A DNA stretch of 64,000 nt from Halichondria panicea (taxonomy: Eukaryota; Porifera; Demospongiae; Suberitida; Halichondriidae): contig NC_087388.1 in the NCBI RefSeq assembly GCF_963675165.1, forward strand, positions 2,582,800-2,646,799, written 5' to 3'. The notes under the pieces are model-generated. The model had not been told where the DNA came from and did no database searches. It saw only the letters and a program-made list of their open reading frames with translations. Both the position numbers and the translations under genes were made by a program. Within the stretch, counting starts at the first letter, position 1, and each line of letters starts with the position of its first letter. This document shows positions 7,579 to 61,609 of the stretch, in pieces.

Positions 7579-7735
7579 AGAGATTCGAAAGAGACTTTGA
7601 ACCACACCGAACTCTCGCAAAGTACTCCTGTACAGTAGATCGAAGAGGTTCAGAAGAGTCAAACCACATACAGTACAGTTTGATAAATAGTCGAAGAGGT
7701 TAGGAGGAGTGAAACCACACTGTGCAAGCTTTTTA
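7579..7735 (-). repeat. ~84-bp repeat family, segment 1
   Basis: Diverged monomers containing GATTCGAAAGAGACTTTGAA, CGAACTCTCGCAAAGTACTC and AGTCGAAGAGGTTAGGAGGA. Almost the same ~160 bp occurs in direct orientation at 15488-15645, and the core recurs inverted at 21188-21272. This marks the left edge of the repeat-rich Crinkler/RHS cluster and directly abuts the truncated Gypsy remnant. Confidence 0.75.
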
Positions 7736-7944
7736 GTTGAAGGAGTTTTGCAGCAAAGGCTTCTTAAATAGAATGTGTGGGATACTGAAATCAGTTATGT
7801 TGCTCTGTCAGCTTTTGTCAGACATTGGAAATTTGAGCTGAATCAGTAGTGTCAGTACTCAGATTTCACAGAAATTGTACCTATTATTCTTCATTATTCT
7901 ATTATTCTCAAGCCTACCTATTATTCTAAAAACTATTCTGGCAT

Positions 7945-8045
7945 AGGAGTCGAACCACAACGAACACCTCTCTCTCCACTCTCCAAGTGTTTGATTGTCC
8001 ATTAGTGTAGTTCGAAGAGGTTCGGAGGGATGGAACCACAACATG
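7945..8045 (+). repeat. ~84-bp repeat family, segment 2
   Basis: One monomer with GTGTAGTTCGAAGAGGTTCG followed by GAGGGATGGAACCACAAC just upstream of the spliced nuclease-like gene. It is preceded by the related GTCGAACCACAACGAACACC. Similar monomers lie at 9110-9540. Confidence 0.7.
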
Positions 8046-8073
8046 GCCTACTCTACTACTCAACAGTGCAGAA

Positions 8074-8811
8074 ATGTCTACTACCAACGACCCTGAAAGC
8101 CAGTTACTGGGCCTGTCAACAAACATTAAAATACCGATCGATGGCGTAGAGGTAGAAACCTGCTTGGCTGTGAGTCATGAATTATATTGTGTATAGTACA
8201 AACGACCAAATATACAGGGTGTAACAGATGCAGCCATCTTAGACAAAGAAGGGAATCAAATCTTCATTGCAGAGGTATTTTTTCCCTTCTACATAATTTA
8301 TATGTACATGCATAATTATTATTTTTATTATTAACAGGCCAAAACCATTGGAAAAACGTTCAGCAATCATACCATGGGGGAGGGGCAGCTACTTGTCTCA
8401 ATGCTAGCCAGTTTTATAAACATTAAAATGAAGCATCCCGTATGGGGATTTCTCCTGTCAAGTCATAGTGTAAGTGAGGTGGTAACACTGATTATGAATA
8501 CTTTTGCACATGATGTTTACTGCCTTTGTTGCCAAGCCACACGTTGAGCTTTTATTTGCTTGGCTTTTAACCCTCCAGTTAGACATTGTCCGTGTACGTC
8601 TACTGAGTGGAGAGGTTTTAGTGACGAAATGCCCTATTGGATCATTTACAGGCTTGAGGTGTGCTTCTGTGAGTTATCGACTACATCTATACAAATCTGT
8701 ATTTGACTCTCACTTCCTGCTATGTATTGTATTTTACGCATGATGTAAACTCACTCCACCCATTCCCTCCACAGATGCAATGCAAGGAAGTCTGGATTTA
8801 AACGACTGTGA
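8074..8811 (+). CDS. Five-exon small protein with PD-(D/E)XK nuclease-like signature
   Basis: Exons read from splice signals are 8074-8169, 8218-8274, 8338-8469, 8579-8658 and 8775-8811. Each intron starts GT and ends AG. Phases agree across all joins and the chain ends at TGA (8809-8811), giving 133 residues. The middle has the order Glu (VEVETCLAG), Asp (VTDAAILDKEGNQ) and Glu-x-Lys (IFIAEAKTIG), then a helix with Gln (MGEGQLLVSML) and a hydrophobic strand (HPVWGFLLSSHS). This matches the D...ExK...Q layout of PD-(D/E)XK nucleases. The assignment is by motif only. It sits alone between repeat monomers, in a cluster where other genes carry REase-like and kinase-like domains, so it may be a stand-alone effector module. 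The start at 8074 is the first ATG in frame; an earlier exon is possible. Confidence 0.6.
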
Positions 8812-8959
8812 TACTCATCTGAGATATAGACCCAGCAGCTGTGATGAGACTGATGAGACTGGTCTGGTACCTGAACCCAGCAGCCGTGAGACTGACAATA
8901 ACCAATAGACAGATGTAGTGTACACTGTGTTCTATTCAATCTTTTTATTCCAGAAGTAT

Positions 8960-9110
8960 TAAATTATTAAATGATATACAAACTAGAGCACTAAAGTGCA
9001 AACCCTCTGGCTGGTGACGTGATAATAAAGAAACCAGAAGAGTGATAATACAGTACTGGCATGTGACTAGCAGAGCTCCACCTGGGAGGAGAAGCTGAGC
9101 AACTTTGCTT
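8960..9110. other. Short spacer before repeat array
   Basis: Follows the stop of the nuclease-like gene and probably holds its 3' end. No other signal was recognised. A poly(A) signal was not identified with confidence. Confidence 0.3.
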
Positions 9111-9545
9111 GTCGATTAGTGTAGTCCGAAGAGGTTCGGAGGGATGGAACCACAACGAACACCTGAAGAACATACTTTGCAATTGTTTACTTGTGCAGGT
9201 TCGGAGGGGTCGAAACACAACGAACACCTGAAGAACACTCTCTCAAGAGTTTACTTTTCCATTAGTGTAGTTCGAAGAGGTTCGGAGGAATCGAACCACA
9301 ACGAACTCCTCTCTCTCCAAGTGTTTGATTGTCCATTAGTGTAGTTCGAAGAGGTTCGGAGGGATGGAACCACAACAAACACCAGAAGAACACACTTTTC
9401 AAATGTTTACTTGTGCATTAGTGTAGTTCGAAGAGGTTCGGAAGGGTCGAACCACAACGAATGCCTGAAGAACACTCGTGTTTGCTTGTCCATTAGTGTA
9501 GTTCGAAGAGGTTCGGAGGAGTCGAACCACAACGTCCTCTCAGTT
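9110..9545 (+). repeat. ~84-bp repeat array, segment 3
   Basis: About six consecutive monomers with GTGTAGTTCGAAGAGGTTCG, a GGAGG(G/A)(A/T) linker and CGAACCACAACGAACACC, then GAAGAACAC...AGTGTTTACTTGTGCATT. The array runs straight into the 3' cut end of the inverted header exon at about 9540. Open frames through it are repeat artefacts. Confidence 0.8.
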
Positions 9546-9846
9546 TCTTCTATTTTCCTCTTAGTTTCTTCTATATCCCTCTTAGTTTCTTCTATATCCC
9601 TCTTAGTTTCTTCTATATCCCTCTCTCCTTGCTGAATTTGTTTCGGGATCTCCATATCCTCTGTTGATGCCATGGCGCCTTGACCAATAGCCTCCATATC
9701 CATATCTTCGTGCTCGTCGGTTGACATGATGGCACCAACACAATACAGGTTCTGTGTAGAGCAGGTGAGAATCACGTGGTCATCACTGTGTGAAATTCTG
9801 CATCCACGTGAAAAGTTTGCAGAAGAAAAGTATGGTGTAAATTGTG
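9540..9846 (-). pseudogene. Inverted copy of Crinkler/RHS-type gene header exon, truncated
   Basis: From 9846 down to about 9540 the minus strand is nearly identical to plus-strand 12181-12460, including the 5' untranslated part and the ATG (9727; MSTDEHEDMDMEAIGQGAMA). The Glu/Lys-rich heptad-like repeat (IEETKRD / IEETERK) has a different copy number in the two copies. Coding stops where the copy meets the ~84-bp repeat, so the NTPase and C-terminal domain are missing. Near-identity implies a recent inverted duplication or gene conversion. It is a dead header unless joined to other exons by splicing, for which I see no evidence. Confidence 0.75.
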
Positions 9847-10218
9847 TATGCACTTAAACATTTACCCAGATCCTACCTCAATCACTTGGAGAGGATGTTC
9901 ATCAGTTGTTCGTTTTGGTTCGACCCCTCCGAACCTCTTCGAACTACACTAATGCTGATATAATAATTGTTAATTATACATTATTATAACTACACTAATT
10001 TCTGATATAATAATTGCTAATTTGAAATTGCAAAAGGTGGGTGGGGCGGCATTGCTAGTTCTGGTTCTTCAAACAACAGAGAAGTACATTACTTCTATAT
10101 AGATATCACTGTATTCCAAAACTCTCACACACAACTCCACAAGGAAGGGTTAGGGAGTTGAGCTAAAACTGGGGCGGGGCCTAATATGCGTGAACTGTCG
10201 AGTCAGAATTAGAAACAA
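9847..10218. other. Spacer between divergent header copy and micro-exon gene
   Basis: Contains one repeat monomer at about 9910-9955 (GGTTCGACCCCTCCGAACC, inverted orientation) and a short direct duplication of TAACTACACTAAT...TGATATAATAATTG near 9955-10020. It may hold promoters for the two flanking genes, but no motif decides this. Confidence 0.35.
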
Positions 10219-11157
10219 ATGATGAATGACACATCTGATGTAAGCTAGTCTCTTATACTGTTTGCTATATTATTTGTTTTGTTATCCAGTTCACCCCTCT
10301 GTCCCAAAAGAGGTGGTAAGTTTATAGGCATGCTTATATTACTATAAGCAGTAACTTACCTAAGCTTTCAATCTCTTGCAGGATCGCATTTATGGCCAAG
10401 GCAGTAAGTAACTCTGTGCTCTCAATGTGAATTTAGTCTTTGCTATTACTCACCAGCAAGTATTAATTAAATCTCTCCTTCATTTCGTGCATAATTGGAT
10501 TCCATAATTGGGCAATTCCATACAGATATCCGCCCCTAACCTCTCAAGATCAGAAGAACCACCTACCCCCCATCTCTCGTGTGTAAGTAATAGTACTTGG
10601 GCATTAATCTCTTTACCAAGTAGACTCTGCATGCCACCTTCTTCACTTTGTGCATAATTGGATTTCATAATTTGGCATTTTCAGATGTCCACCCCTAACG
10701 TCCCAGGATTGGAACCACCTACCCGCCATTCCTTGTGTGTAAGTAGTAGTACTTGGGTATTAATCTCCTTATCTGCATGCCACCTTCTTCACTTCCATAC
10801 AGACGTCCACCCCTAACCTTCAACCTACTCCCTCGTGTGTAAGTTTAGTTGCATGATATATATTTGTGTAATTCTCATACAGACTGTCCCCCACCCTCTG
10901 CTTCCTCATGTGTATATGTTTAGTTACATAATTACAAGCATGACCGTATACCGTATTACCTCGTCATTAAGCCCACCTCGCTTACAAGCCTACCCTCTGT
11001 TTTTCTCAAAGTGTGTATACGTATATATATTTTTTTGCAGACCCCAATAGCACACAGGACACGTTGTAAGTTAAACGTGATTTCTCTCTTAAGTCACTAT
11101 TAAATGTTTATGGTTGCTCTTTTTATCCATCATCATTATCGAGCAGGTTCGAAGTAG
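10219..11157 (+). CDS. Putative micro-exon gene with repeated Pro/Ser/Thr-rich exons
   Basis: Exon-like blocks bounded by AG...GT are 10219-10239, 10290-10315, 10382-10403, 10526-10582, 10685-10738, 10803-10838, 10883-10909, 11041-11065 and 11147-11157. Lengths are 21, 26, 22, 57, 54, 36, 27, 25 and 11 nt. They sum to 279, are open in one phase from ATG and end in TAG. Blocks four to seven are related and each is a multiple of three; three of them start with S(A/T)PN and share PPTPHLSC- or PPTRHSLC-like ends, as if one exon had been tandemly duplicated. The predicted product is about 92 residues, Pro/Ser/Thr-rich, with no known domain. The last block falls in the ~84-bp repeat, so the true 3' end is uncertain. 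Transcription is unproven, but frame conservation across blocks of different length argues for a real gene. Confidence 0.5.
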
Positions 11158-12110
11158 TTGAACCAACCTGATCTCATGTGAGACCATCCAGCAGTTTGCG
11201 TTTCCTCAGTCTAGCAGTGGTTCGGGCAGGTTGGAAGTAGTGGGATCGAACCACACCGAACACCTGTACAACACCCTAACCAAGTGTTTGCCAGTCCAGT
11301 AGTGTAGTTTGAAGAGGTTCAGAAAAATCGAACCACACCGAACTCCTGTAGAACACCTTCACAAAGTGTTTGCATCTCCAGTAGTATAGTTCGAAGAAGT
11401 TCGGAAGAATCGAACCACACCGAACACCTGTAGAACACCCTCACCAAGTGTTTGCTTGTGCTGAGATTTAGGGATCGAACCACACCGAACACCTGTACAA
11501 CACCCTAACCAAGTGTTTGCCAGTCCAGTAGCATAGTTCGAAGAGGTTCGGAGGGATCGAACCACACCCAACACCCCCTATAGAACACCCTCAACTACGC
11601 CAACACTTGATTAGGGTGTTCTACAAGTGTTCATTGTGGTTCAATCCTTCTGAACCTCTTCGAACTACACTACTTCGAACCTGCTCGAACCTACTGCTAG
11701 ATCTAGGAAACGAAGACTGTGGGATGAGATAGAGGTGGTTCCACTACTTCGAACCTGTTTGAACCACTGTTAGACCGTGGAAATGAAGACTGGGATGAGA
11801 TAGAGGTGGTTCAACTACTATCGAACCACACCGAACTCCTGTAGAACACCTTCACAAAGTGTGTTTGCATCTCCAGTAGTATAGTTCACACCAAGTGTTT
11901 GCTTGTGCTGAGATTTAGGGATCGAACCACACCGAACACCTGTACAACACCCTAACCAAGTGTTTGCCAGTCCAGTAGCATAGTTCGAAGAGGTTCGGAG
12001 GGATCGAACCACACCCAACACACCCAACACACATAGAACACCCTCACCAAGTGCCGAACCCACACCGAACTCCTGTAGAACAATTTTCCTGCTTGATCTC
12101 ACATAATTTC
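11150..12110 (-). repeat. ~84-bp repeat array, segment 4, including left arm of a 405-bp inverted repeat
   Basis: About ten monomers. The minus strand reads GGTGTTCGGTGTGGTTCGAT, CC(C/T)TCCGAACCTCTTCGAAC and TACTGGACTGGCAAACACTTGG. Bases 11188-11592 are inverted with respect to 15941-16342 at close to 100 percent by eye. Bases 11640-11820 contain a variant in opposite orientation (GAACCTGCTCGAACC, GAACCTGTTTGAACC). The array ends about 190 bp upstream of the header ATG of the intact NTPase gene. Confidence 0.85.
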
Positions 12111-12295
12111 CAACCTGCCCGAACCACTGCTAGACAGCATCGAAAGGCACATAAATCAACATTTCTAGGATTCAAGAACAATTTACACCATACTTTTCTT
12201 CTGCAAACTTTTCACGTGGATGCAGAATTTCACACAGTGATGACCACGTGATTCTCACCTGCTCTACACAGAACCTGTATTGTGTTGGTGCCATC

Positions 12296-14288
12296 ATGTC
12301 AACCGACGAGCACGAAGATATGGATATGGAGGCTATTGGTCAAGGCGCCATGGCATCAACAGAGGATATGGAGATCCCGAAACAAATTCAGCAAGGAGAG
12401 AGGGATATAGAAGAAACTAAGAGGAAAATAGAAGAAACTGAGAGGAAAATAGAAGAAACTGAGAGGAAAATAGAGAGGGAAGACCCGAAATCTAAACTAG
12501 GCGAAATGCTGTTAGAACACCTAACCAGCCAAACACAACTCCTAACCAACCAGACAGAGCTCCTAACCAACCAGACAGAGGGCCTAAACAAACTGAGAGA
12601 AAGCCTGAGAAAAGAACAGCAACAGCTAAGAGAAGAACAGCTAAGAGAAAGTAAGTTGTGTTGTGTTTGTGCGTCACCTGTATTAAATTTTACTGTGTTT
12701 GTTAGTTGTAATATGAATACATTCACGTGACAATTCTTTTTTCAGCCCTAAGGATCACATGACAATTCTTCTTTTTTCAGGCTCATCAAAGCGCCCACGT
12801 TTGGAGAACCTTCCCCTACAAAAGAACTGTAAGCCTAGAGATAAATATGTGTTTTCCTTTTCCACCATTCTTAATGCTACTTGCCATTAAGTAACCTTTT
12901 GTTTTTCTACAGTGGAAAAATTTTGGATGAGCAACCCGTTGACCGATGACGATCACGACAATCACGACAATCACATAGATTTCTGTTTTGATGCTTTTAA
13001 AACTATTTTGCCTACCACAGAAAAGTTAACAAAGATGTTTGTTAGGAAGGCCTATCGTGACCTTAATGTTCTCATCCATTCTCTCTACGAAGGAAAAGAA
13101 ATAAGAAAAGTGATCGTAACTGGTACTCCGGGTGTAGGGAAAACTGTGTTCATGCTGTACCAACTGTACATGGCAAAAGTGAGGAATAAGAATGTCGTTT
13201 TGAAATGTTTAGATATTGTGGCCGCTTTTATGTCTGATCCACGTCGTGTGTTGGTTCATCTCGATCATATAGATCATATAGATATGCATACGTTGCTTGG
13301 TGCCACTTCAACATTGTATTTTTTTGACCCTGCTGCATCTGGTGAAGAGCTACGCAGTGACGTTCGGGCCTTCACAGTTGTGTTTGCCTCCACAAACCCA
13401 CGGAACTCTAAGATATTTAAAAGATCAACACATACCAAATTTTTCATGCCGATATGGACATTGGAAGAGCTCATAGATTGCCGTTTATTATGTTACCCAT
13501 CCATGACTGAGAACGAGGTTGTGACAGCACATACGATGTGGGGGGGCTCGGCAAGGTGTGTATTTTCGTTAAAAAGAGACCATAATTTACAACGACTCTC
13601 CGAATTTGTTACGTCAGCAAGTTTGTCGGATGTCCTTGCTGATATGGAAGGGTTAAAGATGAGCCGAGACTCCTTTAATAGCAGCCAATGGTTGGTCCAT
13701 ATATTCATTCAACACAACGACTACACAAAACGCTATCTGAAATGGGCGTCTGAGTATGTGATGGATTGTGTGAGCAAGGCCCTATGTAATCAAGCTATAG
13801 CGTGGAAAGACGAGAAGAACAAAATAACAGCTGGACCTATTTATGAAGGAGATGTTCAGAGGGAGCTTCTGCGTGTGGATCGAACGGAGAAATTCATAGC
13901 AAAACGCTTAGGCAAACGGAATAAATACGAGACAATAACGCCCCCTCCTAATGGTCGTATAAGATTTGCAAACACGTCTACTACATTAGGGCCAGTTAAT
14001 TCAACGCAATTGTATGTTCCAGTTGAACCAAACAAAGAAAGTGCAGACTTTGTTTACAACGAATGGATCTTTCAAGCGACTTTGGCAAAACGTCATGATA
14101 TAAAAGCCAGAGGTATCAATAGACTATCAAAACAATTTGATCGTTTATCCTGGAAAGTTTGCTTTTGTGTACCAGCCTGCAATTTTGATAATTTCAAAAA
14201 TGAGCAGAAAATTACCTTGAACGAAGAACTCCTTGAAGGAACTGACATAAAACAGTACTGTCTTCCAATTGATTACAATTGGCGATGA
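12296..14288 (+). CDS. Crinkler/RHS-type protein: coiled header, P-loop NTPase, REase-like C-terminus
   Basis: Three exons (12296-12650, 12781-12828, 12913-14288) join in frame to 592 residues. Residues 1-118 are an acidic start followed by Glu/Lys/Gln-rich coiled coil (IEETERK repeats, LLTNQTE repeats). Exon 2 supplies a basic SSKRPR patch, a possible nuclear signal. The NTPase has Walker A GTPGVGKT at about 205-212, a Walker B-like LYFFDP near 269, FASTNPRN, a WTLEEL segment and WGGSARCVF near 344, the order typical of RHS/Crinkler NTPases. The C-terminal ~100 residues have SADFVYNEWIFQATLAKRHD, matching the Asp...Gln-x-Thr...Lys/His pattern of the REase-like domain described for this class. 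Family members act as nuclear effectors or in element-element conflict. The frame is intact. The start at 12296 is chosen because an earlier in-frame GTG lies in the 5' region shared with the inverted copy. A stand-alone STAND NTPase is the alternative reading. Confidence 0.75.
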
Positions 14289-14440
14289 TTATTTATGATG
14301 CACGCTATTAGAGTCTTTGTGAAAAAGTTGTTGTTTAAATGTCCAGTAAGAAATATATTGTCCTAGTGGAGCCGAGCTGCTGTAGTAGGATGGGTAGGAT
14401 GTGAAGTAGGATGGTAGTAGGATGGTAGGATGGGTGGGAT
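14289..14440. repeat. GTAGGATG-type short repeat after NTPase stop
   Basis: From about 14375 the sequence is built of GTAGGATGGGTAGGATGTGA-like units. The same motif family appears at 15000-15140, 17220-17990, 20630-20820 and 21435-21475. Here it separates the REase-like C-terminus from the kinase-like fragment, so it lies at a domain boundary. Confidence 0.65.
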
Positions 14441-14928
14441 ACTCGATTGTGCTTCAAAGAGTTCATACTTTGTGTGAAGGCCGCGCTTGATGAGCTGCAT
14501 GGCATGAATATTGCGCACAACGATGTGCGAATGGAGAACATTTTGTTTTCTTCAAATTTCACACCAGTTTTTATCGACGTAGATAGGGCCTCGGTATCAG
14601 ATCCAACCAATTCGCACACCACTTATTTATAGGCATCATATCAAACAGCTGCATGTACGACCTCGACCACTCTGTGACATGGAGAGACGACGGTGCCAGG
14701 ACTGACCTGTTCCAGCTGGGCTGGATGGCGGCCTGGATATTGAATACCAGCACCAGCTCTAGCTCGTACCACTCACGAAAATGGAGAACGGAACCAGATG
14801 AAATTCGAACCAACAAGTTCGTTGAGTCCCTGATCACGTCCGGGAAGTTTAAAAGTGAATTGTTGGAGGATTGCGTATCGGAAGTGAAGACAATTAAACA
14901 AGTGTTGTTAGCTCGTTCATTTATTTAA
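14441..14928 (+). pseudogene. Orphan kinase C-lobe (Crinkler-type kinase cassette), frameshifted
   Basis: The first frame (about 14447-14630) reads ALDELHGMNIAHNDVRMENI, then VFIDVDRA. This is the catalytic-loop pattern H-x-D-x-R/K-x-x-x-N followed by a DFG-like D-V-D. After a one-frame shift near 14632, the second frame (14653-14928) continues with MYDLDHSVTWRDDGARTDLF, QLGWMAAWIL and a helical tail, like the region after the activation loop. The N-lobe with its glycine loop and lysine is absent. Kinase domains are a known alternative C-terminal module of Crinkler proteins. The fragment lies 160 bp after the NTPase gene on the same strand, in place for an alternative C-terminus. As it stands it is broken. 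It could instead come from an unrelated host kinase. Confidence 0.6.
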
Positions 14929-15355
14929 TTGTGTGATTATGCTCACTTTAATAGAGTCTCAAGGTCGTGAATGTTCCAAGTTGTAAATGATCCTTCTTGT
15001 ATATATGGATGAACAATTCAGTGTAGGACGTGGTAGGATGTATGATAGGGTACTTTAGGATGGATGGCTTAACAATCCAGTGTAGGACGAAGAATTAAGG
15101 TTGTAGTAGGATGCACAATCCGTGTATGACGTGGTAGGATGTGTGATAATAGATTATTATTTTATTGATTCAGCTGCATACCAGCATCATATCAGCAGCG
15201 TCCCCTTTTTATGCACATTGTTTTGTGCCGTACAACACCTCCTCAAGAAAAGTATTAATGGGTGTAACACAATGGATGTATATCAACCGGTTCAGGATCC
15301 CGAGTTACATGTATGATAGACAACATTTTGATCGCGAATTACACTTTGTACAGGA
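14929..15355. other. Spacer with GTAGGATG-type units, no gene
   Basis: 15020-15150 carries repeated pieces such as CAGTGTAGGACGTGGTAGGA and GGATGGCTTAACAATCCAGT. The rest (15150-15355) is unique and shows no supported gene. Confidence 0.45.
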
Positions 15356-17220
15356 TTAGATTGAACCACACCGAACACCTGTACAACACCCTAACCAAGT
15401 GTTTGCCTGTACGACTCTTCCGAACCTCTTCAAACTATTGTACAGCATAAATAAAGAGTATCTTGCAAGTGTTTGGTGTGGTTCGATCAAGTTTGAAGAG
15501 AATCGAAAGAGACTTTGAACCACACCGAACTCTCGCAAAGTACTCCTGTACAGTAGATCGAAGAGGTTCAGAAGAGTCAAACCACATACAGTACAGTTTG
15601 ATAAATAGTCGAAGAGGTTAGGAGGAGTGAAACTACACTGTGCAAGAGTTTGAAGAGGTTCGAAAGAGTGTCCAGTAGTGTAGTTCGAAGAGGTTCGGAA
15701 GGTTTGAACCACAATGAACACTTGTAGAACACCCTAATCAAGTGTTGGCGTGTCCAGTAGTGTAATTCGAAGAGGTTCGGAAGGATCGAACCACACCGAA
15801 CACCTGTAGAACACCCTAACCAAGTGTTTGCGTGTCCAGTAGTGTAGTTCGAAGAGGTTCGGAAGGATTGAACCACAATGAACACTTGTAGAACACCCTA
15901 ATCAAGTGTTGGCATAGTTAGAAGAGGTTCGGCACTTGGTGAGGGTGTTCTATAGGTGTTGGGTGTGGTTCGATCCCTCCGAACCTCTTCGAACTATGCT
16001 ACTGGACTGGCAAACACTTGGTTAGGGTGTTGTACAGGTGTTCGGTGTGGTTCGATCCCTAAATCTCAGCACAAGCAAACACTTGGTGAGGGTGTTCTAC
16101 AGGTGTTCGGTGTGGTTCGATTCTTCCGAACTTCTTCGAACTATACTACTGGAGATGCAAACACTTTGTGAAGGTGTTCTACAGGAGTTCGGTGTGGTTC
16201 GATTTTTCCGAACCTCTTCAAACTACACTACTGGACTGGCAAACACTTGGTTAGGGTGTTGTACAGGTGTTCGGTGTGGTTCGATCCCACTACTTCCAAC
16301 CTGCCCGAACCACTGCTAGACTGAGGAAACGCAAACTGCTGGCAAGCAAACACTTGGTGAGTGTGTTCTACAGGGTGTTCGGTGTGTTTCGATCCCTCCA
16401 ACTTTTTCGAACTATACTACTGGAGATGCAAACACTTTGTGAAGGTGTTCTACTGGAGTTCGGTGTGGTTCGATCGTTCCGAACCTCTTCAAACTACATT
16501 ACTGGACACGTAAACACTTGGTGAGGGTGTTCTACAGGTGTTCGGTGATTTGATCCCTTCGAACCTCTTCGAACTATATTACTGGACACGCAAACACTTG
16601 GTGAGGGTGTACTACAGGTGTTTGGTGTGGTTGGATCCCACCAAACCTCGTCGAACTACGCTACTGGACTGGCAAACACTTGGTTAGGGTGTTGTACAGG
16701 TCGGTGTGGTTCGATCCTTCGATCCTCTTCGAACTACACTACTGGACATGCCAAAACTTGATTAGGGTGTTCTACAAGTGTTCGGTGTGGTTCGATCCCT
16801 CACCAAGTGTTTGCGGTCCAGTAGTGTAGTTCGAAGAGGATCGGAAGGATCGAACCACGTCGAACACCTGTAGAACACCCTAACCAAGTGTTTGCGTCTC
16901 CAGTAGTGTAGTTCGAAGAGGATCGGAAGGATCGAACCACACCGAACACCTGTAGAACACCCTAACCAAGTGTTTGCGCATCCAGTAGTGTAGTTCGAAG
17001 AGGTTCGGAAGGATTGAACCACAATGAACACTTGTCCAGTAGTGTAGTTCGAAGAGGTTCGGAAGAATCGAACCACACCGAACACCTGTAGAACACCCTC
17101 ACCAAGTGTTTGCTTGTGCTGAGATTTAGGACACGTAAACACTTGGTAAGGGTGTTCTACAGGTGTTCGGTGATTTGATCCCTTCGAACCTCTTTGAACT
17201 ATATTAGTATAGATCTATTG
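15356..17220. repeat. ~84-bp repeat array, segment 5 (largest), including right arm of the 405-bp inverted repeat
   Basis: More than twenty monomers. Orientation changes inside the array: 15356-15930 reads as TCGAACCACACCGAACACC, 15941-16800 is inverted, and 16800-17120 turns back. Bases 15941-16342 are the inverted partner of 11188-11592, and 15357-15462 is nearly identical in direct orientation to 20400-20505. The consensus minus-type monomer carries GGTGTTCGGTGTGGTTCGAT, CCGAACCTCTTCGAACTA and CAAACACTTGGT(G/T)AGGGTGT. Open frames across it are artefacts of the repeat. Confidence 0.85.
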
Positions 17221-18000
17221 TCCAGCCATCCTACCATATCGTACCCTGCTCTCCCATCCTACCACGGTAAGGTATAGTAGGACATCTACATATCTGTACT
17301 AAGCAGAATGTTAACAACCCGATAAGCGTTTATGATAAGGTAGATGTTTGTAGTAGGATGGGGTGGGACGAGGTACATAGTGGAGGAATGCAGGAGGACT
17401 TGTAGGACGTGTACGATAAGGTAGGATGGCTGAACAACCCAGTGTAGGACAAAGGTTGTAGTGGATGAACAATCCAGTGTGAGGACGTGGTAGCATAGTA
17501 CCCTATCATTAGTAGTAGGATGTATGACAGGGTAGGATGGTTGAACCATCCGGACAAAGGTGGTAGTGGATGAACAATCCAGTGTAGGACGTGGTAGGAT
17601 GTATGATATTACATGTCCTACACTGGATTGTTCAGCCATCCTACCTTATCATACCCTATCATACATATCATACATCCTACAACGTCCTACACTGAATTGT
17701 TCATCCATCCCACCCCATCCTACTACAACCTTCTTCGTCCTACACTGGATTGTTCAGCCATCCTACCATATCGTACCCTATCATACATCCTACCACGTCC
17801 TACACTGGATTGTTCATCCATCCTACCCCATCCTACTACAACCTTCTCTTCGTCCTACACTGGATTGTCCAGCCATCCTACCTTATGCTCTCCCATCCTA
17901 CCATGATAGGGTTATAGTAGGACATACTACAAACATCTACCCTATCATAGGTACGATAAGGTATCCCCGTCCTACTATACATCCTACATGTGTATGATTA
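17220..18000. repeat. GTAGGATG-type repeat block with internal inverted symmetry
   Basis: Built of TCCTACACTGGATTGTTCA, GCCATCCTACC and CCTACCACGTCC units. The left half (17340-17600) is in one orientation and the right half (17610-17960) in the other, centred near 17605, so the block can fold back on itself. It lies directly beyond the 3' end of the minus-strand NTPase gene, as the 14375-14440 block lies beyond the 3' end of the plus-strand one. Confidence 0.75.
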
Positions 18001-18070
18001 ACATGCTTATTATACACTGTTTATTCACATTATTTCAACATTGTTTATTCACATTATTATTATACAAATC

Positions 18071-19650
18071 CTATTCAATTGCAACTATGTACTGATCTAT
18101 TTTGATGTTTTTTTGTGCGAGTAGTTCAGGATTTAAGATTCTCTGCTTATATTTGTACTTGGTAAGACTTGTCTTTGGTACACAAAAGCAAAAGTTCCAC
18201 GTTTTACAATCATTAAATTGCTCTGAAAGTTTAACGATACCGTGAGCTTTTATGTCATGGCTTGCTTTCAAAGTAGCTTGAAAAATCCAATTATTGCAAA
18301 CGAAGTCTCCACTTTCTTTGTTACGTTCAACTGGAACATAAAGTACATCTTGAACAAACTCGTCTCCTCTGAAGCTACCCATGTTGGAAAAGTACAAAAA
18401 GTTGATTCTAGTACAAGGGAGGGCTTTTGTTTCTGAGGTTTTTGAGGATAAGCGTGATGCAATGATTGTGTTTGTATTCCCCGTCAGCTTCAAGCGAACT
18501 GCTTCTTCATAAACCTTTCCTCCCAGAATGCAGTTAACAATATTTTTCCAACTTTTAGCGTGTTTTATTAGTGCTTCATTCACCATCCCCAGCACAAATT
18601 GAGACAGCCAATTAATGAGCCTTTTTGTGTGTCGTTGCCCTCAATGAATACATGCACCAACCATTGATGTTGATCATAAGGTTTTTCGCTCGTATGTATC
18701 CCTTCCATATCAGCAATTGTAACCTCCAAATTTTGTGAACAAAGAAAAGATTCCATTCTGGTCATATTCGCAGCTGGGGTTTTCGTAAACAAGCACCTTG
18801 CCGAGCCCCCCCAACGAGCATATTCCTTCTTAAAGCTGATTGAATCCTTGTCTGGGTAACACAATGTACGGCATTCTTCGAGCTCTTTGAATGTCCACAC
18901 TGGCATGTAATACGTGGCAAAATCACATTGTTTGAATATTTTTTGTTGCACTGGGTTTGTGGAGGCGAACACAATTGTGAAGGACACAGATCTCTTCTTT
19001 AGCTTTGATTCAGTATAATGAGGGTCAAAAAAGCACAATGTCGCCTCATTACAAAGCAACTGCGAAATATATTCCTGATCGTCAGATACGAACACACTTG
19101 GTGTAGATACAAAAGCCCACGTCTCTTCTCCAAGTTGCAAAACGACGTTCCTGCGCTTTAATTTTGCAACGTGCAATTGGTACAGCATGAACATAGTTTT
19201 TCCTACACCTGGAGTACCGGTAATGATCAGATTGTCTATTGTCTTATCAGTGTACTGCTGGCTGTTCGATCAACTTATTTATGTCGGTATAGGCCTTCCT
19301 AATAAAAAGCTTGGTCAATTTTTTTGTGTCAGGGAACATACTACTCAAGGCACGAAAATCAAAATTTAGGTGTCCTTCTACTACATCTTCCTCCTTCCAT
19401 GAATTCCAACATCTTTGAACTGTACAAAAACAAAACAAAAAAGTTTACTTGCTGAACACATATCTATCTCTAGGCTGTACTTACTTTGTATGATAGGGTC
19501 TTGCTTGCTTCTTTTAGGTGGTGGGGCTTCTACTCTTTGGCTTTTTAAACCTTTTAAACTACTTTCTAAACTTTCTAATCTACTTTCTAATCTACGGAAC
19601 TCCTTGAGTAGTAACAGTTCAGATTTCGGGTCAGTTTGTTCTTCTTTCAT
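18071..19650 (-). pseudogene. Second Crinkler/RHS-type NTPase/REase-like gene, two frameshifts
   Basis: Minus strand. The header exon (19650-19485, or an upstream ATG at 19706 in another frame) is Leu/Glu/Lys-rich and ends with a basic APPPKRSKQD patch. The intron is 19484-19420 and the main exon begins at 19419. It encodes KKLTKLFIRKAYTDINKLI, Walker A GTPGVGKT, LCFFDP, FASTNP, a WTFKELEECR segment, WGGSARC and, at the end, ESGDFVCNNWIFQATL followed by FCFCVP. It is colinear with the 12.3-14.3 kb gene but clearly diverged, so it is an older paralogue. The frame shifts just upstream of Walker A (about 19262) and again after HQWLVHVFIEGND (about 18615). Both are one-base changes; they are real inactivation or assembly indels. 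It ends at 18071 in the same REase-like domain. Confidence 0.75.
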
Positions 19651-19693
19651 ATCCCTCTCAATATCCCATCCCCCTCAACAGTTTCTTCTTGCT

Positions 19694-19785
19694 TTTTCAT
19701 AGCCATTACAGCTACTACAGTTATCTGGTCATGGTGGTTCCACGTGATCCAACTACCTCTGAGGTAGCTGTAATGGCTATGAAAA
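19694..19785. repeat. Hairpin containing the upstream start region of the second NTPase gene
   Basis: TTTTCATAGCCATTACAGC (TAC) at 19694-19715 is inverted exactly at 19764-19785, giving a 22-bp stem with a 48-base loop. The left arm contains two ATG codons on the minus strand that would be alternative starts of the header. This may be the scar of a foldback event during duplication. Confidence 0.6.
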
Positions 19786-19799
19786 TTAATATATTAGTA

Positions 19800-20510
19800 T
19801 AGATGTTCAGTGTGGCTCGATCCCTCCGAACCTCTTCGAACTATGCTACTGGACTGGCAAACACTTGGTTAGGGTGTTGTACAGGTGTTCGGTGTGGTTC
19901 GATCCCTAAATCTCAGCACAAGCAAACACTTGGTGAGGGTGTTGTACAGGTGTTCGATTCTTCCGAACCTCTTCGAAGTACACTACTGGACACGCAAACA
20001 CTTGGTTAAGGTGTTCTACAGGTGTTCGGTGTGGTTCGAACCACACCGAACTCCTGTAGAACACCTTCACAAAGTGTTTGAATCTCCAGTAGTATAGTTT
20101 GAAGAAGTTCAGAGGGATTGAACCACACTGAACACCAGTAGAACACCCTCACCAAGTGTTTGTGTGTCCAATAGTGTAGTTCGAAGAGGTTCGGAAGAAT
20201 CGAACCACACCGAACACCTTGTAGAACACACTCACCAAGTGTTTGCTTGTGCTGAGATTTAGTGATCGAACCACACCAAACACCTGTACAACACCCTAAC
20301 CAAGTGTTTGCCTGTCCAGTAGTGTAGTTCAAAGAAGTTAGGAACCACACTAAACACATGTAGAACACCCTCACCAAGTGTTTGCTTGTGCTGAGATTTA
20401 GAGATTGAACCACACCGAACACCTGTACAACACCCTAACCAAGTGTTTGCCTGTACGACTCTTCCGAACCTCTTCAAACTATTGTACAGCATAAATAAAG
20501 AGTATCCTAA
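19800..20510. repeat. ~84-bp repeat array, segment 6
   Basis: 19800-20035 is in one orientation and 20036-20500 in the other, meeting head-on at GTGTGGTTCGAACCACAC (20031-20048), a perfect 18-bp palindrome. The last ~105 bp repeats 15357-15462 in direct orientation, so the minus-strand NTPase gene lies between direct repeats. Confidence 0.85.
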
Positions 20511-21398
20511 TTGAGAATACCTTTTTAGATTGTATAATTATATAGGTACATATATGTAACTACTGATAAACTACTAAATCTAGATCGTTATAATTATATG
20601 AGCATTGTAACATTGCAATCCAGTGTAGGACGTGGTAGGATGTAGATGTTTGTAGTAGGATGGGGTAGGACGGGGTACATAGTGATGTGTTAGGAATGCA
20701 GGAGGACTTGTAGGACGTGGTACAATAAGGTAGGATAGGGTTAGGATGAACAATCTAGTGTAGGACGTGGTAGGATGTATGTTAGGCAGGATGGCTGAAC
20801 AATCCTACCACGTTCTATACTAATTAATTAGCAGAACAAGTACCCGAATGGCTACAATTCAAGTTTTGAAGAAAGACACCCCAATGCCAGAGAGGACAAC
20901 TTAATGGAGTCAATAACAAGGGTAGGCAGACAATACTGAGGGTACTCGAACCATTGTAAGCTAGCCATGGGATTTGAGAGCAACCACTTCATAGTGTGTA
21001 TTTGAGATACAATTATTCTCCTCTCCATGTCCAATAGAATAGAAAAAAACCATCTTGTTCGATTATACTATAAACTACTAAGTCCAAATGCACTTTCTCC
21101 AATAGCATACCACCCCCAACTGTATATGCACTGCCACCTACAAGTCTGAGTGTGTGCGTTGCTGTGGAGGGGTGGGGTTCATTATACTATTTCGACTATT
21201 TATCAAACTGTACTGTATGTGGTTTGACTCTTCTGAACCTCTTCGATCTACTGTACAGGAGTACTTTGCGGCACTGATATACATAAATATACCATCTGTG
21301 TAAGTATATATATACAACTAGCTAAGAAGTTCTTTAAGCATCAGCAGTAAACGTTCCATGTATGTTCGAGTAACATTCACTTTTTGTGAATAATTACT
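20511..21398. other. Spacer with GTAGGATG-type units and one ~84-bp repeat fragment
   Basis: 20615-20820 carries GTGTAGGACGTGGTAGGATG-type units. 21188-21272 is an inverted partial copy of 7590-7700/15500-15610. The remaining 20830-21180 and 21273-21398 show no supported gene. Confidence 0.5.
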
Positions 21399-21814: not shown

Positions 21815-22790
21815 GCTTCTTACTCTTCCAGGTTACTGCTGTGCCTCCAATCTGAAACATGTAGCCAGTAGTCGACTTGTAGTCATTACAATCACCTGCC
21901 CAGTCAGCATCAGAGTAATCACTGGATTCTCCTATATCAGGTCGTGTTCTAGAGGACAGATAGAGCAGGCTGCCCACTGCAGATTAGTATATTTTTTTTG
22001 TTTTGTTTACCAACTTCAAATTAACATTGACTGGAGTGGTTTGGCCTCTTCCATACCATACTTCTTGAGTCTTAATTGGTTTGGCCTCTTCCATACCATA
22101 CTTCCTGAGAACTGAGGTAAATTGACCTATCCAAACTTTACCATCTGTGTGGTCTTGAACCACTTGTACACCGAGAAAGTAATTAAGTTCCCCGAGATCT
22201 TTCACATTGAATTTCTCTGATAGAGCTTTCTTTACTTCTGTGATTCTCTCAGAGCTTTCTCCAGCGATCACAATGTCGTCGACATCCTATTAGGAATGTT
22301 TCTCCTTCAGATGCAGAGTAAATACACGGAAAGCCCATACTCTTGAGATGAGAGTCGAGAACATAGTTCCAACATCTGGGGCTTTGTTTCAAACGGTACG
22401 GCTGTGCTTCAGTTTACAAACTAAATGTTCCTTGCCTTCCACAACAAAACCTTCTGGTTGCTTCATGTATACTTCCTCTTCAAGGTAACCATTGAGGAAC
22501 GCTGCAGTGACATCTAATTGATGTAACTTGAGACCTTTCTGAACAGAAATAGCAACCAGGCTACGAACAGATTCAAATCGAATGACGGGTTTCGTCGTAA
22601 TCCAAACCATGTCTTTGTGAAAAGCCTTGTGCAACTAAGCGCTTTCAATGCATCAGCTTTCCGTTTAAATACCCATTTGTTACCAACGGGTTTGCGGTCT
22701 TTGGGTAACTCCATCTCCTTCTGCATTGCCAGGCTCCTTCAGTAGTTCAGGGACAGTGTAGAGTCTTACTCCATAATAGTCTACTCGACG
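21815..22790 (-). pseudogene. Copia-type retrotransposon remnant: RT and RNase H part
   Basis: Read on the minus strand. The RT appears as DMVWITTKPVIRFESVRSLV, LHQLDVTAAFLNGYLEEEVY and MKQPEGFVVEGKEHLVCKLK (about 22650-22400), then FNVKDLGELNYFLGVQVVQD (about 22210-22150). The RNase H region at 21815-21960 reads SDYSDADWAGDCNDYKSTTG and YMFQIGGTAVTWKSKKQS. These are hallmark Ty1/Copia segments. Frameshifts lie between the blocks, and a short segment with KYGMEEAKPIK is duplicated near 22030-22110. The upstream linker ends near 22790, where the Crypton-like insertion begins. Part of the missing upstream region resumes at 24735-25085. Confidence 0.8.
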
Positions 22791-24734
22791 TCAGTATTGT
22801 TTCTGTTTCGACTTCTTGAGGCTTCTTCATATAGGTTATAGGCTGAGTCCAAGGTCTCTATGGGGTTTTGAGAACCGAAGGCCTGAGGCTGTAGCATCTC
22901 GAGCGTAGCGAGGGTGCTACTAAGGGCCTGAGGTTCTTAAAACTCCATAGTGACCGTTGGACGAGGCCTATAACTGATTTAGAATAGCGTAGCAACCACA
23001 AAATAAACTGCTAGCTAGCTAAACGAGTACCGTCTGGGCTTTTGTGAGCTGCCATTTTGTATTGGAAACACTTGGCATGGCTGGGGATGCTGTTCCAGTG
23101 CTACGCTTTCTACTAGCTCTCGTGCTGATAGTGAAATTGACCCAAGGCGGAGTTTAGAAAACGCAGTTGAAGCCCTACTGAGTACGAGTGGCCACAAACA
23201 AGACCAGAAACCTGAAACTGTGCCTGTGCAGCCAAGTTCAAGAAGATACACCATTCCAGTGACTGATACGGATGTAGCTAAAGCCAGAGTTGAGTCTGTA
23301 CCCAAAAAGACACGAGAAGACTCCTCTTACTGTGTGAAAGACTGGGCAAGCAACAGGCAACAAATGTCAAATGTTGAAATTCCACCACTGGCAGAGTTGG
23401 ACAAGCAAGGTCTTCAGTACTGGCTGAGTCGCTTTTTGATGGAAATCAGAACAAAGAAAGGTGCAGAGTATGCTCCAAACTCACTCCATCATATAGTTTC
23501 TGGAATTATGCGTCATTTACGTCAGAACTGCGGAAGACCAGATATCGATTTCTTCAAGGACCATGAGTTTGCAAATGAAGCGACTTCAATCTGCTGGTGT
23601 TGGCTCTGTACGTAAGCAGGCTGAACCAATTTGCCTTGAAGAAGAAGAGTTGCTGTGGGAGAAAAAACTCTTAGGAGACCACAGCCCGGACGCTCTTTTG
23701 AACACAATGGTGTTCGACTCTATTTTGCATTGCGCAGTGGAGGTGAGCACAGACAACTTCGCCATAATCCTTGCCAAATTGACTTTGTGAGCCTCGAAAT
23801 GAACGATCATTCCTCAGATACAGAGAAGACATATCGAAGAATCGTCCCGGAGGATTGAAAGGACGCAAAATCAAGCCCAAAGTAGTGGTTCACTATTCAA
23901 ATCCCGAAAATCCTCAGAGATGCTTTGTTGAGCTGTTTAAGAGATACAATAGCTTGTGTCCTCATGATCGCCCGAGCAATGCGTTCTACCTCTCTCCTCT
24001 GACAAAACCTAAACAAGATTGCTGGTTTTCCCGAGCACCTTTGGGACATAACACCTTGAAGAACATAGTGAAGAACATGTGTAAAAAAGCAGGAATACAA
24101 GGTTTTAAAACGAACCATTCACTCAGAGCCACAGCTGCAACCAGGTTGTACTCAAGTGGTGTTGACGAACAACTCATAATGGAGCGTACAGGCCATCGCA
24201 GTATCGAAGGAATCAGAGGCTACAAGCGAACTTCCTTAAAGCAGCAATTTCAGACATCCTACAGCCTCGTTTGGACATTGTGCCTGTATCCAGAAGCCAA
24301 TTCACAGAGCCATCTCTGCCTCCTCCAATGGCTGCCACCACATTTCCTTGCTCACAGGTGTCGACTAACAACATCAGCGCACCTCGCACCTCATCCTCAA
24401 GTGATGATCATGCAGGAATATTCTATATAAGTTCATGCTCAAACATATCTATAAACATTAATCATTCCAACTAACTCTGAACTCTGAACGTCATTATCAT
24501 CATTCTGTTATTATACATGCATGCATTATTATTAATTTTGTTTAGTCAATATTCAGTATGATTGTATGTATCTATGATTGTATGTATCATGTAAAAAATG
24601 TTAAATGCATGTAGTGAACATAAAATGGACCTCCATAGAAGACCTCCTCCATAGAAGACCTCTGAATGACTGAGAGGTCTCTATGAGAAATAAAGGACCT
24701 CCAAGTAACCAATCAGATTGCACCATTTGTGACA
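22791..24734 (+). mobile_element. Crypton-like element inserted into the Copia remnant
   Basis: The Copia protein can be followed on the minus strand on both sides (up to about 22790, and from about 24735), so this segment is an insertion, approximately 1.94 kb. Its sole recognisable gene is a tyrosine recombinase on the plus strand. Exact ends are unclear. Related short motifs CCATAGAGACC (22855 region) and CTATGAGAAATAAAGGACC, with two CCATAGAAGACCTC copies (24620-24710), lie near the edges. Cryptons lack conventional TIRs, which fits the absence of an obvious pair. Confidence 0.6.
23090..24430 (+). pseudogene. Crypton-type tyrosine recombinase, frameshifted
   Basis: N-terminal part 23140-23580: AELDKQGLQYWLSRFLMEIR, SLHHIVSGIMRHLRQNCGRP, DIDFFKDHEFANE. 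Next frame: MKRLQSAGVGSVRKQAEPIC, LLGDHSPDALLNTMVF, then VRLYFALRSGGEHRQLRHNP in a third frame. The C-terminal catalytic part (23855-24250) reads FKTNHSLRATAATRLYSSGV, IMERTGHRSIEGIRGYKRTS. Visible catalytic residues are Arg (LRSGGEHR), H-x-x-R (HSLR), the GH motif and the Tyr nucleophile (GYKRTS). This is the Crypton/DUF3504 class, whose relatives include domesticated vertebrate proteins. At least three frame changes (near 23600, 23720 and 23850) inactivate it, although some could be missed introns. No ATG was identified for the true start. Confidence 0.75.
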
Positions 24735-57675: not shown

Positions 57676-58752
57676 CTAAGATTGTTGGCCATATCGGTCG
57701 GGAGGTCGTGTTGTTCTATTTGAACGTCTCACGGGCATATCTTCCGGAGTTGGGTCTGCTTGCTCAGGGGAGTCGCTATTCGTTTCCGGTACTATGTAAT
57801 CGTCATCCTCCTCTGATGTAGTTATGATCGCTTGTCTATTTCTCAACTGGTCGATGTGTCTTTTCACCACTTGTCCAGTCTCCAATTCCACCATATATGT
57901 TCTGGTTCCTAGAACCTGTGAAATCTTTCCCGGCAACCATTTGTCACCTGGCCGAAAATTCTTGGCATAGACTGGATCGCCTTCTAGGTATAAGCGTTCC
58001 CTCTGCGTTTTGTCGTGGTTCACTTTCTGAGAGTTCTGTTTTTCTTCTACTCGTTTGGCTAGATCAGGATGTAACAAATCCAAATGTGTTCTCAGTTTCC
58101 TTCCTAGAAGTAGTTCTGCTGGCGTTCTTCCAGTAGTGGCATGAGGTATCGTTCGATACTTGAACAGTATTCTTGCTAATCGCAAATCAAAATCTCCTTT
58201 AGAGTTCTTTCTCAGCCCGTTCTTTATCACTTGTACTGCTCTTTCCGCCAAGCCATTCGTTGCAGGGTGATACGGGGCAGTGGTACGGTGTCTTATTCCA
58301 TTGCTTTTTGCAAATGTTTGGAATTCCTCGCTTGTGAACGATGTACCGTTATCCGAAAATATCAATTCTGGGAGACCATGAGTCGCCATCAGGTTTCTTA
58401 AAACTCGAATGGTTGCTGCTGATGATGTAGAGGCTACTGTCACTGCTTCTATCCATTTAGAATGTGCATCTACCACAACAAGGACCATCTTTCCTTCCAC
58501 TGGTCCCAAATGATCGATGTGTATCCTTGACCACGGTCTTTTAGGCCATTCCCAGGGGTGCAGTGGAGCTTCAGCAGGTGACTTTTGATTCATTTGACAC
58601 TTCTCACAGGTTTGCACTTTTCCTGTAATATCTGAATCAATTCCTGGCCACCACACGACTTGTCTCGCTAGGAGCTTCATTTTCGATATTCCGGGGTGTC
58701 CTTCATGTAATAGGGCCAGTACATCTGGTCTTCCAACCACTGGGACGATGAC
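57676..58752 (-). CDS. Gypsy integrase
   Basis: Minus strand. It begins right after a TGA at 58753-58755 in the same frame as the upstream RT/RNase H, so it is the C-terminal part of one polyprotein interrupted by a nonsense codon. The N-terminal zinc-binding part shows HEGHPGISKMKLLARQVVWW and CEKCQMNQKSP (H-H-C-C). The catalytic core has Asp in HIDHLGPVEGKMVLVVVDAH, Asp in FSDNGTSFTSEEFQ and Glu in YHPATNGLAERAVQVIK (DDE). A C-terminal segment with FRPGDKWLPGKISQVLGTRT follows, then an acidic tail. It inserts the cDNA into host DNA. All catalytic residues are intact. Confidence 0.9.
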   Translation of the reverse strand, partial: VIVPVVGRPDVLALLHEGHPGISKMKLLARQVVWWPGIDSDITGKVQTCEKCQMNQKSPAEAPLHPWEWPKRPWSRIHIDHLGPVEGKMVLVVVDAHSKWIEAVTVASTSSAATIRVLRNLMATHGLPELIFSDNGTSFTSEEFQTFAKSNGIRHRTTAPYHPATNGLAERAVQVIKNGLRKNSKGDFDLRLARILFKYRTIPHATTGRTPAELLLGRKLRTHLDLLHPDLAKRVEEKQNSQKVNHDKTQRERLYLEGDPVYAKNFRPGDKWLPGKISQVLGTRTYMVELETGQVVKRHIDQLRNRQAIITTSEEDDDYIVPETNSDSPEQADPTPEDMPVRRSNRTTRPPDRYGQQS

Positions 58753-59949
58753 TCAATTTCCCCAAAGCACACAGTCGTCAATCGTGCTGAGCTCGTCTTT
58801 TCTTTGTTGATATGGAGCTAACGCATCCTCGCTTTCTTCCCTCCATCCTTTCATTACGAATGTTCGTACTCTACTGAGTAGGGGATCACGATCTGTCCAT
58901 TTTCGAATCTGTTTCGCCGATATGGGGGATGCTTGCAAGGTTTCCAGTAACAGGACCACTTCTGCAGGAACTTTCGCTTCTCTAGGTGTGTCTGGTAGAG
59001 GTAATCTACTCAGGCCATCTGCATTTGCAATTTTCTCTCCAGGTCGGTATGAGATCGAGTACTGGTATGCACTGAGGGTTAGGGCCCATCGTCGCAGTCT
59101 AGCAGATGCCATGGCTGGAATTGCCTTGTTTTCATTTAACAAATACTGTAGGGGTTTGTGATCGGACACGATGGAAAATTTCCTCCCATAAATGTATTGA
59201 TGAAATCGTTTGACGCCAAATGTAATCGCTAGGGCCTCTTTGTCTAGCTGTGAGTACCTCTGCTCCACCTCGTTCAGGGTTCGAGAAGCAAAGGCAATTG
59301 GTTTCTCTGTACCATCCTCTTGTATGTGAGATAGCACTGCTCCCACTCCGTACGGTGAAGCATCAGCCGCCATTGTGAGGGGTTTAGACGGGTCATAGTG
59401 TTCTAGCACCGGTGACTTTGTTAGTTGTTCTTTAACCGTCTCAAAGGCTTTTCTCTCTTGGATCCCCCATTTCCATTGGGTCTTCTTTTGAAGTAACCGA
59501 TACAGTGGTGCTAGATTGCTCGATACGTCCTTGATGAACTTGCCATAGTAATTCACCATTCCTAGAAATGAGCGCAACTGTGGTACATTCTGAGGCGCTG
59601 GGGCTTCTCTGATGGCTCTGACCTTGGTCTCTGTTGGTTCTAAACCATTTGCTGAGATCGAATGCCCAAGGTATTCCACCTTGTCCAGTAGAAACTGACA
59701 CTTTCCTTTCTTCAGTGTGAGATTTTCTTCTCCCAGTCTGGTTAAGACTTTGTCGATATTTTGGAGATGTTCCTCCTCTGTTTCTCCTGTAACCAAAATG
59801 TCATCAATGTACACTACCGTCGAAGGAATGTCTCTAAGCAACCCTTCCATAGCCCTTTGGAATATGGCTGGAGCGGAGTGTACCCCGAAAGGTAGTCGGT
59901 TATACCGAAACAAACCCTTGTGGGTGTTGATCGTGACACTGTCCTTGGA
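58753..59949 (-). CDS. Gypsy reverse transcriptase (palm) and RNase H
   Basis: Minus strand, in frame with the gag-protease-RT part upstream but separated by TAG at 59950-59952. It shows FRYNRLPFGVHSAPAIFQRA, the catalytic box VVYIDDILVTG, LGHSISANGLEPTETKVRAI, LRSFLGMVNYYGKF, and RNase H with MAADASPYGVGAVLSH, SRTLNEVEQRYSQLDKEALA and FSIVSDHKPL. The end at TGA (58753-58755), where the frame continues into integrase, is another nonsense change. RT copies the RNA and RNase H removes it. The catalytic Asp pair is intact; function would require read-through of both stops. Confidence 0.9.
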   Translation of the reverse strand, partial: SKDSVTINTHKGLFRYNRLPFGVHSAPAIFQRAMEGLLRDIPSTVVYIDDILVTGETEEEHLQNIDKVLTRLGEENLTLKKGKCQFLLDKVEYLGHSISANGLEPTETKVRAIREAPAPQNVPQLRSFLGMVNYYGKFIKDVSSNLAPLYRLLQKKTQWKWGIQERKAFETVKEQLTKSPVLEHYDPSKPLTMAADASPYGVGAVLSHIQEDGTEKPIAFASRTLNEVEQRYSQLDKEALAITFGVKRFHQYIYGRKFSIVSDHKPLQYLLNENKAIPAMASARLRRWALTLSAYQYSISYRPGEKIANADGLSRLPLPDTPREAKVPAEVVLLLETLQASPISAKQIRKWTDRDPLLSRVRTFVMKGWREESEDALAPYQQRKDELSTIDDCVLWGN

Positions 59950-61581: not shown

Positions 61582-61609
61582 TGGTACAGTTTTATCCTCG
61601 TCGCCAATT

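Follow-up and report, generated by a model that had tools for sequence, protein, structure and literature searches.

Introduction

Proteins of the Crinkler/RHS (CR) type combine a P-loop nucleoside triphosphatase (NTPase) with a restriction endonuclease (REase), and CR proteins that pair an REase with a kinase have been described in the same source (PMC5289972). Mobile elements of the CR-NTPase8/REase7 type, among them Tribolium Medea1, have also been described, and this beetle element is the animal case named for such genes (PMC11342252). A search of literature titles on Crinkler/RHS-type genes in animals returned only a Wolbachia/Medea paper, and others may be in print. Here, we analyze a stretch of 64,000 nucleotides from the sponge Halichondria panicea (C12:2582800-2646799, referred to below as the window; the assembly comprises 131.5 Mb in 39 contigs). 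It holds a Crinkler/RHS-like gene cluster that is real and unusual and that consists of one intact ATPase-nuclease-like gene and broken relatives, pasted in as copied blocks. The related kinase-type copies, which are diversifying, are the part most worth following. The reading that we favor, and regard as probable, is that of a CR-like conflict-gene cluster built by the repeated insertion of copied blocks, with open nuclease members and with some recent kinase copies that change fast. A genome in which several types of CR-like module are neighbors, and in which near-identical copies of the kinase type differ almost exclusively by amino acid replacements, would be tractable for asking what such nucleases fight, and an unoccupied site provides an example of a CR-like gene inserted as a DNA block.

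CR-like modules in the window

Three related kinds of module lie together, as stated in the original prediction, which had been made from the sequence: an NTPase with an REase-like part, an REase-like part with a kinase, and an REase-like part on its own. The REase-like calls are based on motifs and, for gene 1, also on a short stretch of the predicted structural model. The features are as follows.

12296-12650, 12781-12828, 12913-14288, plus strand: gene 1, three predicted exons, 592 amino acids; open exons, GT..AG introns
Layout of gene 1: coiled-coil-like header with a motif resembling a nuclear localization signal (NLS), P-loop NTPase (GTPGVGKT), REase-like C terminus (ADFV..FQAT..HDIKA)
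9549-9845, minus strand: inverted copy of the upstream side and header start of gene 1 (against 12178-12474, 98% over 297 bp)
18071-19674, minus strand: gene 2, a paralogue of gene 1 (44-47% at the amino acid level, by piece), frame broken in this assembly
8074-8169, 8218-8274, 8338-8469, 8579-8656 and on, plus strand: small REase-like gene, D..(n)..E-A-K, exons by eye
14442-15339, plus strand: 5'-truncated 3' end of a dispersed REase-like-kinase element, comprising the C-lobe of the kinase and a 3' region that contains GTAGGATG units

Both NTPase/REase-like genes of the original prediction are present, gene 1 intact on paper and gene 2 with a broken frame. The extra inverted header exon that had been proposed (9540-9846) was recovered as the match to gene 1 at 9549-9845. 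The supposed orphan kinase C-lobe (14441-14928) is a real piece and represents the 3' portion of an REase-like-kinase gene of greater length.

Gene 1 has homologues in the protein database (P0001-P0007 and P0010), of which none is named; at E≤0.001, 7 were found with the single sequence and 8 with an alignment, the latter search having scored just the candidates with the most shared words. P0001 is 99% identical to gene 1. With gene 1 as the query, the sponge's own genome yielded 12 matches, distributed over about seven places, of which two are inside the window. The P-loop assignment in this family is secure because homologue P0002 lies above the Pfam DAP3 cut-off (23.7 versus 23.1 bits). The elements of the REase-like motif, ADFV (385-388), FQAT (394-397), and HDIKA, are conserved across the homologues, and P0004 is without the acid of the motif. 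In the predicted structural model, this C-terminal part forms a strand (386-389), a second strand (392-396), a helix (406-416), and a third strand (420-428), which span ADFV and FQAT; the block values of the predicted local distance difference test are 68-86 for residues 391-460 and 52 for residues 381-390, and the model is poor elsewhere. No solved structure was matched by this model in Foldseek at E≤0.001. The looser Foldseek listing is led by Grc3/Clp1 and mS29-type NTPases, followed by mixed chains, and covers mainly residues 23-222.

The Crinkler/RHS reading of the original prediction is favored by architecture, motifs, and RHS matches below cut-off; on the other side, the profile searches gave nothing above cut-off for it. 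(i) Profiles PF07999 and PF20147 found nothing above cut-off or at E≤1 across the genome, and 14 control genomes were equally silent. (ii) When the REase and RHS parts were searched for by sequence in Pfam, NCBIfam, and PDB, the sole match to exceed its cut-off was that of P0002 to DAP3. (iii) The best NCBIfam match was trypanosome RHS (TIGR01631), with E values of 0.0061 for the paralogue L015 and 0.036 for the homologue P0003, far below cut-off. The CR label for the gene-1 family is therefore favored but not proven, since the REase is assigned by motif, the RHS matches are below cut-off, and no structure was matched at E≤0.001.

As in described CR NTPase-REase proteins, an NTPase is followed by an REase-like domain, with a separate N-terminal header and an NLS-like motif. 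Unlike in these proteins, no Ubl/LFLAK header was detected with PF20147, a profile to which the control genomes were silent too, the RHS profile match is below cut-off, and the family is small and sits in an animal-like genome. The gene-1 header is coiled-coil-like with a KR.[KR] motif, and Ubl/LFLAK is one CR header type among several. The KR.[KR] pattern occurs N-terminally in gene 1, gene 2, P0003, P0006, L034, and L035 (6 of the 17 sequences scanned, several of which are without a header; the loose pattern also matches interior sites). With trypanosome RHS genes, the cluster shares a distant P-loop profile similarity (L015) and a repetitive setting; it differs from them in lying far below the family cut-off and in that no retroelement is seen inside gene 1, whose exons are open. 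Gene 1 would probably encode a nuclear, NTPase-controlled nuclease acting on nucleic acids.

Gene 2 lies in an inserted block

The features of the insertion that carries gene 2 are as follows.

17215-19789, minus strand: inserted block of 2,575 bp with gene 2 and a foldback GTAGGATG array; absent from L018
17200-17214: 15-bp direct repeat, left copy flanking the insert
19790-19804: 15-bp direct repeat, right copy flanking the insert
17215-17990: GTAGGATG/CATCCTAC units arranged as a foldback array; the longest arms measure 42-44 nucleotides and are 93-100% complementary

Locus L018 (C1:8.22 Mb) has window positions 16343-17206 and 19798-20506 at 98-99% identity, without the sequence between them. 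When the window flanks were joined by removing the insert and one 15-bp copy, they matched L018 at 504 of 540 positions, with one 30-bp gap. The gene-2 block is an insertion with 15-bp direct repeat ends and an unoccupied counterpart. A 27-nucleotide inverted repeat (93%) was noted at the 5' end of the block (19694-19785).

Within the block, the C-terminal half of gene 2 (18071-18640) and its NTPase half (18580-19269) are in two frames, and a further separate match lies upstream of the NTPase half. P0005 resembles gene 2 but is without the break on the C-terminal side, which shows that this part also occurs in unbroken form. The dN/dS values of gene 1 against the gene-2 pieces (nonsynonymous/synonymous rates of 0.52/0.52 and 0.48/0.81, in that order) are near saturation and were not used.

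Gene 1 has left a copy elsewhere as well. Locus L013 (C1) carries gene-1 bases 12997-14338 at 98.96%, a 1.34-kb piece with part of the last exon alone, and an 11-bp direct repeat lies at its edges. The differences between the two (3 nonsynonymous, 0 synonymous, and 1 noncoding) are uninformative. At the edges of the inverted header copy, no direct repeat of at least 6 bp was found as searched. With regard to mobilization by the machinery of long interspersed nuclear elements, poly-A was not seen at the inspected edges of the two insertions with 15-bp and 11-bp direct repeats, whose 3' ends differ. Block insertion and fragment copying have taken place at this cluster; because the gene-2 and L013 blocks end differently, we claim no defined transposon. 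Separately, L017 4549-5666 (C1:5.7555-5.7567 Mb) is a mosaic in which short pieces come from gene 2 (124 bp at 99.2%), from the 82-bp repeat described below, and from the kinase end (331 bp at 100% to the window kinase piece).

These data bear on the alternative that the NTPase-REase-like gene is itself mobile, as a transposase-like or Medea1-like CR element that ends in the GTAGGATG foldback. The 2,575-bp block with its 15-bp repeat and unoccupied counterpart would suit such an element, as would the description of CR-NTPase8/REase7 mobile elements, Tribolium Medea1 included (PMC11342252). The cluster shares with the latter an NTPase-REase architecture in an animal, tied to insertion and mobility, a likeness drawn from the description of these elements; unlike for Medea1, no killing phenotype is known for it. 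However, L013, as the second copy, ends differently and holds no more than part of the last exon, no inverted repeat joins the two ends of the gene-2 block among the 25 of 38 inverted pairs listed, and copies are few. We consider this alternative unlikely. On the favored reading of repeated block insertion, the gene-1 and kinase families both keep open members, around which copies and fragments move as DNA blocks.

Fast amino acid change in a dispersed REase-like-kinase family

The truncated kinase element of the window recurs, 93-97% alike, at three places, namely, L028 (C11:3.046 Mb), L025 (C6:7.326 Mb), and L019 (C11:5.026 Mb, shorter). The near-identical REase-like-kinase copies are as follows.

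L028 1891-3570
L025 4734-6407, minus strand
L019 5303-6718

In the L028 frame (559 amino acids), a PD..EIQSS motif is accompanied by a kinase-like domain; its Pkinase match has an E value of 7.7e-05 and 22.6 bits (cut-off 31.7), and the REase part is called by motif alone. The family has 22 genomic matches, 6 of which are stop-free frames of at least 485 amino acids; four of these six are diverged (C9, C8, and two on C10). The motifs PD, (E/Q)(V/I)QSS, HND(V/I)R(L/M)EN, and (I/V)D.DR are found in all six aligned frames. Like described CR REase-kinase proteins, these frames fuse an REase-like domain to a protein kinase; unlike them, they form a multicopy dispersed element with near-identical copies and a nonsynonymous excess. 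Their products would probably be REase-like nucleases under the control of the fused kinase. At the edges of the L028 and L025 elements, no direct repeat of at least 8 bp was found, and neither locus has inverted self-matches of at least 80 bp at 80%.

The nonsynonymous excess was assessed in several comparisons. (i) Across 541 codons of L028, L025, and L019, differences amount to 59/1261 nonsynonymous, 5/362 synonymous, and 6/1437 noncoding; nonsynonymous differs from synonymous change at p=0.003 and from noncoding change at p=6.5e-14, and synonymous from noncoding change at p=0.05. (ii) For the pair L028/L025, the values are 37.5/1288 nonsynonymous versus 2.5/371 synonymous (p=0.006); when the five codons next to an indel were removed in both directions, they were 33/1238 versus 2/358 (p=0.013; versus noncoding, p=9e-7). 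(iii) Of 15 pairs run in the kinase family, 14 have shared codons, with 5 at p<0.05 (L028/L025, L028/L019, L025/L019, L025/L019b, and L019/L019b) and 9 not; the pairs are not independent, and the p values are uncorrected. (iv) In the other 14 family pairs compared, the nonsynonymous proportion of differences was lower than the synonymous proportion, so the signal belongs to the recent copies.

The variable codons of L028, L025, and L019 are clustered (18 close neighbors versus 11.2 expected, p=0.007) and form patches at 353-358, right after VYKVIH (347-352), at 381-393, and at 454-475, after IDVDR (447-451). By these motif-assigned landmarks, variable patches follow the putative beta-3 lysine and fall within what would be the activation loop. 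The low number of synonymous changes speaks against gene conversion from unlike donors, which would be expected to bring such changes too. Taken together, the data suggest diversifying selection on the recent kinase copies and a role in an arms race, in which the opponents would most likely be invading nucleic acids, parasites, or selfish elements.

The small PD-(D/E)XK-like spliced gene of the original prediction is present (8074-8656, exons by eye). It has 11 matches in the genome and no Pfam match at E≤1. Its copy at C11:5.032 Mb (L033 1849-2471; 97.6% over 623 bp) lies about 3 kb from the local kinase-and-repeat cluster, and REase-like-kinase and stand-alone REase-like modules co-occur with both repeats in C11:5.024-5.033 Mb. 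Between the gene and its copy, 121 codons show 7 nonsynonymous changes and 2 synonymous ones, and 3 of 258 noncoding positions differ.

A bolder version of the favored reading, to which we give limited credence, is that of a live arsenal of Crinkler/RHS-like nucleases of the NTPase, kinase, and stand-alone types; spread through the genome as gene-bearing blocks and with its recent kinase copies strongly diversifying at discrete patches, it would serve in innate conflict or allorecognition or act as a Medea-like selfish killer. The opposite view, which we hold to be similarly doubtful, sees a repeat-rich graveyard of once-useful genes that drift in decay and have no present function, the blocks having come from break repair or from the machinery of long interspersed nuclear elements. 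It draws on the broken or partial state of the window kinase, L017, L013, gene 2, and several further copies, and on the 11-15 bp direct repeats, since direct repeats of such variable length suit retrotransposition or staggered-break repair. Against it, gene 1 and six kinase-family frames remain open, and a nonsynonymous excess over noncoding change is not a product of drift.

Repeats around the modules

The repeats in and around the cluster are as follows.

7990-8083: single 82-bp-type unit before the small REase-like gene
9104-9533: 82-bp repeat array
11212-12056: 82-bp repeat array
14382-14440: tandem repeat of GTAGGATGG, immediately beyond the 3' end of gene 1
15006-15148: GTAGGATG-type units of the kinase-element 3' region
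15358-17199: 82-bp repeat arrays, both orientations
19798-20506: 82-bp array, 99% identical to L018 4448-5156
20608-20822: further GTAGGATG-type units

The repeat first described as having about 84 bp is real and fills several arrays, with a period of 82 in TRF. It separates most modules, and each of the two NTPase genes has a GTAGGATG-type repeat on its 3' side, both as originally noted. The arrays on C12 and C1 have common blocks at 97-99.8% in a different order (98-99.8% for window 15940-17206 and 19798-20506 versus L018). Window 14442-16229 is colinear with L019 (94.5%), and 15940-16342 and 16343-17206 are colinear with blocks of L018.

Across the genome, a 24-mer of the 82-bp unit (≤2 mismatches) gave 62 matches in 12 merged loci, with 27 of the 62 in the window, and the GTAGGATG 19-mer (≤1 mismatch) gave 54 matches in 25 merged loci, with 9 of the 54 in the window. 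The exact 16-mer had 35 matches, 15 of them in the window; at one mismatch, the scan was noisy (reversed control 25 versus 77), and exact matches alone were therefore counted. Proximity was assessed against 25 CR-like places (7 NTPase type and 18 kinase type, some weak). Three of the 12 82-bp loci lie within 5 kb of a CR-like match, and 6 of the 25 GTAGGATG loci lie within 2 kb; the chance expectation within 5 kb is about 0.02 and 0.05, respectively. These counts are not independent, because 5 of the 6 near GTAGGATG loci hold pieces of one kinase element. The repeat loci are thus near CR-like matches above chance, partly by shared descent. The claim of two dedicated repeat families was not borne out, as most loci of either repeat (9 of 12 and 19 of 25) have no CR-like match within 5 kb; the spread of the 82-bp repeat is not even, yet it does not always stand beside the gene family. 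By eye, several of 14 repeat loci carry seemingly unrelated frames, such as the tyrosine-kinase-like and kelch-like frames of L022.

The original prediction had the repeats serve as dedicated sites of recombination at which headers and C-terminal modules are exchanged, in the manner of a polymorphic effector locus. The position of the repeats between most modules, their proximity to CR-like matches beyond chance, and the reordered common blocks of the C1 and C12 arrays would agree with this. Yet no chimeric gene was seen, and the gene-1 header has 2 genomic matches, both in the window and one a fragment (the gene-2 header was not searched); header swapping is therefore unsupported. The many loci away from CR-like matches and the shared kinase-element origin of most near GTAGGATG loci also weigh against the proposal, which we regard as very unlikely. 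The repeats would instead be by-products or landing sites. In the kinase-element surroundings, GTAGGATG units are found in the 3' region, and a degenerate 82-bp unit lies about 1.35 kb beyond the L028 stop; on the block-insertion reading, such units may have spread further from this setting.

Two further observations concern the GTAGGATG repeat. L022, L023, and L024 (C6:0.517, 0.562, and 0.676 Mb) share 97.8-99.6% identity across some 7-9.7 kb, and every one of them has the GTAGGATG unit; at C17:1.94-2.16 Mb paired GTAGGATG-type matches occur at eight places, about 10-55 kb apart.

Other frames in the window

Outside the cluster, Pfam identified an RVT_2 (Copia-type) retroelement frame at 21984-22286. 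At 23019-24430, a QRICH1 domain frame is followed by a DUF3504/phage-integrase-type frame, which we take to be Crypton-like. Retroelement frames of the protease and reverse transcriptase types were found by Pfam at 59950-61611, and those in the preceding part (57676-59949) were assigned by eye.

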